Of a stretch of DNA of 64,000 nt, positions 54,716 to 57,622 are shown piece by piece; within the stretch, counting starts at the first letter, position 1; every line of letters begins with the position of its first letter. Below the pieces are notes generated by a model. That model made no database searches and was not told where the DNA came from. It saw only the letters and a list, made by a program, of their open reading frames with translations. Position numbers and translations under genes: made by a program. This DNA comes from a bacterium (GTDB taxonomy: Bacteria > Electryoneota > Electryoneia > Electryoneales > Electryoneaceae), in the NCBI GenBank assembly GCA_019912845.1, contig JAIOHU010000137.1, positions 92,730-156,729 of the forward strand, given 5' to 3'.

Positions 54716-54744
54716 TTGTTTTAACCCTCAAAGAAAACTATACT
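54716..54744 (+). promoter_or_regulatory. Candidate promoter (-35/-10) for met leader
   Basis: TTGTTT - 17 nt - TATACT; CTTATC-CC-GATAAG palindrome overlaps -10/start region at 54743-54756. Confidence 0.5.
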
Positions 54745-54798
54745 TATCCCGATAAGAGTATTGTGGACTCGAAAGTCAACAAAACGAATTCAGAGAAC

Positions 54799-54864
54799 AT
54801 GATTTATTTACCTTTAAATAGTATGATGATGCGAATGCAAACTACCGGGGTTTCTCGAGTGTAA
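54799..54864 (+). CDS. Met-rich leader peptide 1: MIYLPLNSMMMRMQTTGVSRV
   Basis: Translated directly; 5 Met incl. start, MMM-R-M run; followed by antiterminator/terminator elements. Confidence 0.75.
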   Translation: MIYLPLNSMMMRMQTTGVSRV

Positions 54865-54924
54865 GCATACGGTATGCTGAAAATTCATTCACAGAACCCC
54901 ATCAAAATCCTGATGGGTTTTTTT
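54847..54924 (+). promoter_or_regulatory. Attenuator 1: antiterminator (54847-54855 with 54893-54900), intervening hairpin (54864-54878), terminator (54898-54924)
   Basis: GGGGTTTCT pairs with AGAACCCC; AGCATA-CGG-TATGCT; CCCATCA-AAATCC-TGATGGGTTTTTTT. Confidence 0.75.
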
Positions 54925-54949
54925 GTTGCATAAAATTAAAGAAAAATCA

Positions 54950-55051
54950 ATGAACAGCAAAATCAGCAAAGTAGAAAAAGAAAACGAGTTCACCTTCATG
55001 TCATATATGATGATGTATATGATGATGCGCTGCCGCGTGGTGGACACTTGA
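54950..55051 (+). CDS. Met-rich leader peptide 2: MNSKISKVEKENEFTFMSYMMMYMMMRCRVVDT
   Basis: Translated directly; in-frame alternative start at 54998 (MSYMMMYMMMRCRVVDT); 7 Met codons within 10 codons. Confidence 0.78.
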   Translation: MNSKISKVEKENEFTFMSYMMMYMMMRCRVVDT

Positions 55052-55112
55052 ACTATAAACTTATCAAATTCAAATAGTTAAAAGCCCACTGAAAATAAAC
55101 AGCGGGCTTTTT
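55038..55112 (+). promoter_or_regulatory. Attenuator 2: antiterminator candidate (55038-55043 with 55086-55091), intervening hairpin (AACTAT/ATAGTT), terminator (55081-55112)
   Basis: TGGTGG/CCACTG (4 WC + 2 GU); AACTAT(55051-55056)/ATAGTT(55074-55079); AAAGCCCACTG-AAAATAAA-CAGCGGGCTTTTT. Confidence 0.7.
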
Positions 55113-55142: not shown

Positions 55143-56351
55143 ATGAAATTCAACACATTAGCGATTCATGGCGGGGCTGGAAATGATCCACAAACCGGTG
55201 CAGTAAGTTTTCCGATCTATCAAACTTCCACCTATTCGCAGGAGGTACCGGGTAACCCACGGATTTACCAGAACAAGGAATTGAGTTATGGTCGCAGCGA
55301 AAATCCGACACGAACCGCATTTGAAAATGCTGTCGCTGCGCTTGAAGGTGCGCAGTATGGCAGTGCTTATGCGTCTGGACTGGCAGCGATAAGCGCAGTA
55401 CTTCACCTTCTGAAGTCAGGAGATCATATTGTTGCGGTTCAGGATTTGTATGGTGGTGCCTACCGCCAATTTACCAAGATATATACCGGCTTTGAGCTGG
55501 ACTTCAGTTTTGTCGATACGACAAACCTTGAAAATATTGAGGCAGCGATTACCAATAAAACCCGCTTCCTCTGGTTAGAATCCCCCAGCAACCCTCTCCT
55601 TAACATAACCGACATCCAAGCTGCCTGTGAAATCGCTAAACGTCACGGGGTTATTTCCATTGTCGACAACACCTTCGCTTCCCCATACCTGCAAAATCCA
55701 CTATCCCTCGGCGCGGATATCGTGCTTCACTCCGCAACTAAATATATCGGCGGTCATTCCGACGTTGTGGGTGGAATCGTCTTGACCAACAATCGGGAGT
55801 ATGGCGAAAGGCTTCGCTTCATTCAAAATGCAGTTGGTGCGATTCCGGGACCACAAGACTGTTTCCTGCTACTTCGTGGTGTAAAAACTCTCGGAGTACG
55901 CATGGACCGTCACTGCCAGAGCGCATTCGAGATTGCCAGACATCTGGAAACTCACCCCAAAGTTTCAAGAGTGTATTATCCGGGCTTGGAGAGCCACCGG
56001 AATCATGAAATTGCCAAAAAACAGATGTCGCTGTATGGAGCAATCGTCTCATTTGAACTCGATGCTGACCTCCCTGAAGTCTTCAGTTTCCTCTGCAGCC
56101 TGAAACTGCTTACGCTGGCAGAAAGTCTTGGCGGAGTTAAAAGTTTAATCTGCCACCCGCCCTCCATGACTCACGCATCGGTTGAACCAGATGTACGACG
56201 TAAAGCCGGGGTGTCTGATGGATTAATTCGTTTGAGCGTGGGACTTGAGGATGCTGAGGATTTGATTGCAGATCTGGATGAAGGTTTGGAGTTTCGCCAA
56301 TCCGGCAATGGAGAAAAGCTATCTGGAAAACCAGTAAAAGGAGCAGTATGA
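55143..56351 (+). CDS. metB: Trans-sulfuration PLP enzyme (cystathionine gamma-synthase/lyase family)
   Basis: YGRSENPTRTAFENAVAALEGAQYGSAYASGLAAI; PLP-Lys LHSATKYIGGHSDVVGG; AESLGGVKSLICHPPSMTHAS. Confidence 0.88.
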   Translation: MKFNTLAIHGGAGNDPQTGAVSFPIYQTSTYSQEVPGNPRIYQNKELSYGRSENPTRTAFENAVAALEGAQYGSAYASGLAAISAVLHLLKSGDHIVAVQDLYGGAYRQFTKIYTGFELDFSFVDTTNLENIEAAITNKTRFLWLESPSNPLLNITDIQAACEIAKRHGVISIVDNTFASPYLQNPLSLGADIVLHSATKYIGGHSDVVGGIVLTNNREYGERLRFIQNAVGAIPGPQDCFLLLRGVKTLGVRMDRHCQSAFEIARHLETHPKVSRVYYPGLESHRNHEIAKKQMSLYGAIVSFELDADLPEVFSFLCSLKLLTLAESLGGVKSLICHPPSMTHASVEPDVRRKAGVSDGLIRLSVGLEDAEDLIADLDEGLEFRQSGNGEKLSGKPVKGAV

Positions 56352-57622
56352 TCGGGAAAATCGGAATAGGCTTGCTGGGTTACGGCAATGTGGGTGTGGG
56401 TCTGGTAAAACTACTGGAACAATCGCAAGAGGTAGTTTTCAGCCGAACAGGATTAACGTTTGAGGTAATTGGAGCGTTGGTACGTGATCCCCAAAAACCT
56501 CGAGAAGTTGCTCTGCCTTTTCTTACAGATGATCCGGCAGAAATTTATCTTCATTCCAAGGTCGATATTGTTGTGGAGATACTTGGTGGAATTGAACCAG
56601 CCACCACCTATCTCCTGGAAGCACTGAAGCACGGCAAACATGTTGTTACAGCGAACAAAGCGGTGCTCGCGGAGAATGGCTCAGAGATATACGGGAAAGC
56701 GCATTCATTGAAACGGCGTGTCGGGATTGAGGCGGCTGTTTGTGGGGGAATTCCTGTGATAAAAGCACTCAACCAGGGGTTGGTGGCGAACCGGATCAAC
56801 GGTATTGATGGTATTATGAACGGCACCACTAACTACATCCTCAGCCAGATGCACCGCAGCGATGTCAGCTACCAGGAGGCTCTTACCCAAGCTCAAAATG
56901 CGGGTTTTGCGGAGCCTGATCCTGCCCTTGATGTGAATGGATCGGACACCGCACAAAAGCTGTCCATACTGGCACGATTTGCGTTCGGTGTTGATCTCCC
57001 CTGGAAACTGATTCCCAGACATGGAATCGAACAGATCAGTTCAGCAGACATTCACTTTGCCCGTAAAATCGGCTATGTAATACGTCTGATTGGTTCGGGA
57101 CACAGAAATGGTTCCGGGATTGACTTCAGGGTTACACCAGCACTGATTCCGGAACGTCACCCACTGGCGCATGTACAAGATGAGTATAACGCAATTACGA
57201 TAAGAGGAGATGCGGTAGATAATCAAATGCTCTATGGCAAAGGTGCAGGAGCATTTCCAACCGCGAGTGCATTGCTCGCCGATATGGTTGATGTAGCAAC
57301 TGGTGGAGGTATAGGAATTGGGCAGTTGAATGGGATTGAGCCAGCGCAATTGACAACACTTCCGACTCGTTATTATCTGCGTTTTCCAATACCGGACAAA
57401 CCGGGAGCAATCGGTAAACTGGCAATGCATCTTGGAGAACAAAAAATCTCAATTCGCAACGCCAGCGCGGAGCTATCAGGTTCGGCGAGTAATGTTGGTC
57501 AGGTGCAGATAGTAACACATCAAACCTACCCAAGTCAGATTGAAAAAGCGTTCGATAAAATAATAGAAGATGGTCTGTTGTTGGGCGATCCTGTAGGGTT
57601 TCCGATTCTGAATCCGAGTTGA
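56348..57622 (+). CDS. hom: Homoserine dehydrogenase with C-terminal ACT domain
   Basis: IGIGLLGYGNVGVGLVKLL; HVVTANKAVLAENG; GGIPVIKALNQGL; GIDGIMNGTTNYIL; ATG overlaps metB stop. Confidence 0.94.
   Translation: MIGKIGIGLLGYGNVGVGLVKLLEQSQEVVFSRTGLTFEVIGALVRDPQKPREVALPFLTDDPAEIYLHSKVDIVVEILGGIEPATTYLLEALKHGKHVVTANKAVLAENGSEIYGKAHSLKRRVGIEAAVCGGIPVIKALNQGLVANRINGIDGIMNGTTNYILSQMHRSDVSYQEALTQAQNAGFAEPDPALDVNGSDTAQKLSILARFAFGVDLPWKLIPRHGIEQISSADIHFARKIGYVIRLIGSGHRNGSGIDFRVTPALIPERHPLAHVQDEYNAITIRGDAVDNQMLYGKGAGAFPTASALLADMVDVATGGGIGIGQLNGIEPAQLTTLPTRYYLRFPIPDKPGAIGKLAMHLGEQKISIRNASAELSGSASNVGQVQIVTHQTYPSQIEKAFDKIIEDGLLLGDPVGFPILNPS

Follow-up and report, generated by a model that had tools for sequence, protein, structure and literature searches.

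What controls metB-hom, a methionine biosynthetic operon that is preceded by two short, methionine-rich reading frames, each followed by an intrinsic terminator? For methionine genes, regulation usually falls to SAM riboswitches, T-boxes, or MetJ-type repressors. Leader-peptide attenuators have been described for many amino acids, and amino-acid runs in leaders are a well-known feature of these. The region at 54763-55112 of the 64-kb stretch of DNA analyzed here (the window) is best read as a tandem ribosome-mediated attenuator, in which duplicated Met-codon leaders would sense methionyl-tRNA and thereby regulate metB-hom (probability of about 0.68).

The locus and its operon

The host is an uncultured bacterium whose genome assembly comprises 4.65 Mb in 297 contigs and is ~92% complete. 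The metB-like protein belongs to the Pfam family Cys_Met_Meta_PP (E 1e-151) and is placed by NCBIfam among the cystathionine gamma-synthases and gamma-lyases, falling under the equivalog cut-off of each. The hom product exceeds the NCBIfam subfamily cut-off for homoserine dehydrogenase. Both the upstream neighbour and the next downstream gene lie on the opposite strand, and the operon therefore consists of two genes, metB and hom. The metB-like gene starts 30 nt past terminator 2, and its Shine-Dalgarno sequence is located 3′ of this terminator and is not part of the attenuator structures. The putative promoter has a weak −35 element and is missing from the consensus-scan list. Neither the window nor 15 related loci gave a SAM riboswitch or T-box match in covariance-model searches with Rfam.

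The host genome harbors matches to the metB-like gene, hom, and metE. Domains of MetX, MetA, and the B12-dependent MetH were not found in the ~92% complete assembly, which leaves the homoserine-activation step without an assigned gene. On contig C156 (locus L226), within the first ~250 bases and on the minus strand, the metE frame continues into an ATP-synthase b-type-like C-terminal part; the remainder of metE is found on C90, and the end of C156 is likely a chimeric contig end. Homoserine dehydrogenase of the type found here occurs in only two of the 39 genomes of the phylum, the host and G029. Among named homologues, the one closest to the metB-like protein comes from an Armatimonadetes MAG (61% identity), and the metB-hom pair may therefore have been acquired.

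The reading frames, codon clusters, terminators, and gene context are collected in Table 1, together with the pairing strands that enter the folding computations.

Table 1. Features of the metB-hom leader region and operon (positions in the window)
Feature	Position	Strand	Remarks
Possible promoter	54716..54744	+	TTGTTT (54716-54721), 17 nt, TATACT (54739-54744); inferred from sequence reading
Leader peptide 1	54763..54864	+	33 codons, MDSKVNKTNSENMIYLPLNSMMMRMQTTGVSRV; GTG start, alternative ATG 54799
Met codon cluster, leader 1	54823..54837	+	MMMRM; sequence
Antiterminator 1, 5′ strand	54847..54852	+	GGGGTT; within leader ORF; computed folds
Intervening hairpin 1	54864..54878	+	AGCATA-CGG-TATGCT; first base is last base of stop codon
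Antiterminator 1, 3′ strand	54895..54900	+	AACCCC; last three bases common to terminator 5′ arm
Intrinsic terminator 1	54898..54924	+	CCCATCA-AAATCC-TGATGGG, then T7; sequence
Leader peptide 2	54950..55051	+	33 codons, MNSKISKVEKENEFTFMSYMMMYMMMRCRVVDT; ATG start
Met codon cluster, leader 2	55007..55027	+	MMMYMMM; sequence
Proposed antiterminator 2, 5′ strand	55038..55043	+	TGGTGG; within leader ORF; weak
Intervening hairpin 2	55051..55079	+	AACTAT (55051-55056) / ATAGTT (55074-55079), 17-nt loop; sequence
Proposed antiterminator 2, 3′ strand	55086..55091	+	CCACTG; within terminator 5′ arm
Intrinsic terminator 2	55081..55112	+	AAAGCCCACTG-AAAATAAA-CAGCGGGCTTT; 10/11 paired, T run to 55112
metB-like Cys/Met metabolism PLP-dependent enzyme (cystathionine gamma-synthase/lyase type)	55143..56351	+	Shine-Dalgarno AGGAGA
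Homoserine dehydrogenase (hom)	56348..57622	+	4 nt overlap with metB

Two methionine-rich leaders

Both units consist of a short leader ORF with clustered Met codons and biosynthetic genes downstream, and in unit 2 the terminator directly precedes the gene. The Met signal is stronger in leader 2, where two ATGATGATG runs place six Met in seven codons. The start of leader 1 was taken as the farthest in-frame start, the starts of both leaders are predictions, and the Shine-Dalgarno sequence is not strong at either leader for any candidate start. The initial annotation gave leader 2 as MSYMMMYMMMRCRVVDT, and this peptide is encoded at 54998-55051, but its ATG at 54998 is internal to a frame that is open upstream to the start listed in Table 1. 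The ATGATGATGCG that was said to be common to both leaders occurs in each of them. The 5′ strands of both antiterminators start ~10 nt beyond the last Met codon and finish just ahead of the stop, a placement that the mechanism requires.

The two leaders can be aligned over their 33 codons without a gap, with 10 identities and a score that is matched by 2 of 10,000 shuffles (27 of 10,000 when only the N-terminal part before the Met runs is aligned). At the DNA level, the similarity of the units outside of the shared ATGATGATGCG is marginal (22/1000 shuffles). The tandem leaders are likely a diverged duplication of one ancestral leader; this is likely rather than proven, because the start codons for the homology test were picked by inspection and the DNA similarity is marginal. 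Between duplication with divergence and convergent constraint, which had both been offered as explanations, the gapless alignment favors duplication, with marginal help from the DNA. The different primary sequence ascribed to the second unit holds for its hairpins but only in part for its leader, given the gapless similarity.

Proposed mechanism

We infer leader translation, stalling, termination, and a response to methionine from these features. Under methionine shortage, a ribosome would stall at the clustered AUG codons of the leader and leave the final codons ahead of the stop uncovered. These could then pair with the 5′ arm of the terminator that follows, so that transcription would go on. 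When methionine is plentiful, the ribosome would reach the stop codon and hide the antiterminator strand, so that the terminator could form. An RNA polymerase transcribing metB-hom would pass two such gates, one after another. Gate 1 would be a well-formed switch. Gate 2 would go back to the same ancestral leader and, given its weak antiterminator, could work no more than kinetically, or else as a leaky terminator that has partly degenerated.

In attenuator 1, the computed folds describe a clean switch, with an antiterminator and a terminator that are mutually exclusive and set by the ribosome position. With the ribosome edge at 54838-54847, as in a stall on the Met cluster, antiterminator 1 is populated at 0.90-0.93 and the terminator at 0.01-0.05. 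Once the edge reaches 54850 or a later position, as for a ribosome at the stop, terminator 1 has a probability of 0.85-0.94. Edges further upstream, at 54825 and 54832, give mixed states with terminator 1 at 0.28 and 0.56, respectively. Pairing of antiterminator 1 gains 9.6 kcal/mol, which is equalled in 4 of 1000 dinucleotide shuffles of the leader. Without translation, terminator 1 prevails (0.65); such terminator dominance resembles the superattenuation of known systems.

In attenuator 2, all three structural elements that were proposed initially are present: the intervening hairpin, the TGGTGG/CCACTG pairing with its two G-U pairs, and the terminator AAAGCCCACTG/CAGCGGGCTTT (55081-55110), which is followed by a T run. 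The antiterminator pairing gains 4.9 kcal/mol and is equalled in 73 of 1000 dinucleotide shuffles, which is chance level. According to the computed folds, antiterminator 2 reaches 0.86 in nascent transcripts with 3′ ends at 55092-55102 and is populated only below ~55105; in the completed transcript (55112), terminator 2 stands at 0.99 for all ribosome positions tried. Known antiterminators such as that of trp can work kinetically even when the terminator is the more stable structure, and the weakness of antiterminator 2 therefore does not exclude a function. Judged by these folds, unit 2 is the weaker and less certain half of the pair. The initial annotation saw the same logic twice, which is true of the Met leader and the terminator, both of which are doubled, but only attenuator 1 switches thermodynamically by ribosome position.

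Distribution of the arrangement

The arrangement of Met leader and terminator is not accidental. Within the window, only two short ORFs contain at least four Met per seven codons, and both lie here, each with a terminator and together inside 350 nt. Related loci of about 2.3-2.35 Mb that served as controls (both strands) contain 18 such ORFs, none of which is followed by a terminator within 110 nt. Across 114 metB-like loci with upstream sequence, from which the window’s own copies were excluded and which include a few duplicate entries for a single place, no Met-rich leader with a terminator was found. The shared ATGATGATGCG occurs at 12 sites in the host genome, and among the inspected forward-strand sites only the two discussed here represent a leader followed by a terminator. 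A search for ATGATGATG plus T6 in the 39 genomes of the phylum, with one locus per genome and two more inspected, gave no other convincing case. No Met leader was found upstream of metE in the host genome or in the sequence seen of G003 and G005.

The metB-hom pair is shared by only one other genome among the 39, G029, which carries its nearest homologue in the phylum. There, a single leader ORF, MIATTTSMRKLSQMTPVRVGS, with a clear Shine-Dalgarno sequence (AAGGAG) and a single terminator lie upstream of the genes. This leader contains three Thr codons (Thr-Thr-Thr) and one Met codon, and the Thr run would fit a homoserine-pathway operon. Its alternative pairing is equalled in 26 of 1000 shuffles, and the full-length fold prefers the terminator, as in unit 2 of the window. 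The region (L003 1326-1460) is a candidate Thr/Met attenuator. Its leader was rejected as a peptide homologue of the window leaders, as homology to either was not detectable. In the Armatimonadetes locus (L032), metB-hom is present and no leader was found. Homologs without the second leader had been named initially as a finding that would count against the tandem, and the loci of G029 and L032 are of this kind. A candidate leader attenuator thus stands at metB-hom in two lineages, and the tandem with its Met runs appears so far only here. No close relative with the tandem was found among the 39 genomes of the phylum.

Alternative explanations

Attenuator 1 could be the sole regulated switch, with unit 2 being a decaying copy whose terminator forms a constitutive partial barrier. 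This deserves serious consideration, though we hold it to be a minority possibility. The chance-level antiterminator 2, which never competes at equilibrium, and the single unit of the homologue in G029 are in its favor. On the other side, unit 2 retains the stronger of the two Met runs and an open 33-codon frame that stops just beyond the pairing strand, and its antiterminator reaches 0.86 in the computed nascent transcripts. A constitutive terminator immediately 5′ of metB-hom would moreover be costly.

Control may instead be translational, with the leaders as coupled upstream ORFs and a shortage of Met-tRNA that affects translation starts at metB or within the AUG runs. The AUG runs are possible alternative starts, and the position of a ribosome ahead of metB could matter, but an intrinsic terminator follows each leader and the metB Shine-Dalgarno sequence lies outside of the structures, which makes this explanation very unlikely. 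Little credence can likewise be given to an undescribed SAM or Met riboswitch in the leader that would render the Met-rich ORFs incidental. Genes of this pathway often have SAM riboswitches; against this stand the lack of any Rfam family at the gathering threshold and of any credible one at E≤5, the absence of a Met-run ORF with a terminator elsewhere in the window and the 2.35 Mb of controls, and the lack of evident structures beyond terminator, antiterminator, and small hairpins. Chance, with ATG repeats that arose at random in an AT-rich intergenic region next to two terminators of the ordinary kind, would accommodate antiterminator 2 and is scarcely credible for the whole, as the controls hold no comparable case and this one operon has two, the leaders resemble each other without gaps, and switch 1 is better than 996 of 1000 shuffles. 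The initial argument against chance accordingly stands for the combination of Met ORF and terminator and fails for the pairing of antiterminator 2.

Comparison with known systems

The attenuators of trp, his, leu, thr, ilv, and phe in Proteobacteria share with the present locus a short ORF rich in codons of the end product, an antiterminator strand at the end of this ORF, and a terminator ahead of the first structural gene. Here, unlike in these systems, AUG (Met) would be sensed, two units are arranged in series, the phylum is another one, and the antiterminator of unit 2 is weak. The attenuators of mgtCBR respond to other signals (ATP, proline/Mg) and have unrelated ORFs. Tandem attenuators, with two short ORFs in a long mRNA leader and alternative stem-loops, are a trait shared with Salmonella mgtCBR (PMC3641672); in contrast to mgtCBR, both units described here contain Met codons and are apparent duplicates. 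SAM riboswitches (S-box and others) and the Met T-box act on the same kind of gene by premature termination, whereas here Rfam gives no match and the sensor would be the translating ribosome.

In Streptomyces lividans, a metL leader with several methionines has been proposed to precede metNIQ (PMC8079986). That operon encodes a transporter, its leader has scattered Met (MCRRMC), and a typical Rho-independent terminator is absent according to the authors (PMC8079986), whereas the present locus has biosynthetic genes preceded by Met runs and a pair of terminators. In Met operons of Actinobacteria, a conserved RNA element was not seen (PMC1262725). Beyond the S. lividans metNIQ proposal, which concerns a transporter, a search of the open-access literature yielded no biosynthetic operon with a Met-codon attenuator. 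That two duplicated Met-codon leaders in series form a methionine-sensing, ribosome-mediated attenuator of a methionine biosynthetic operon, with a specificity not found described, is given slightly less than an even chance. If true, the translating ribosome can also sense methionine, even though AUG is the initiation codon, and the two serial gates would sharpen or widen the response. Leader-peptide attenuation itself is already known; what would be new here is a Met-codon leader attenuator before a biosynthetic operon.
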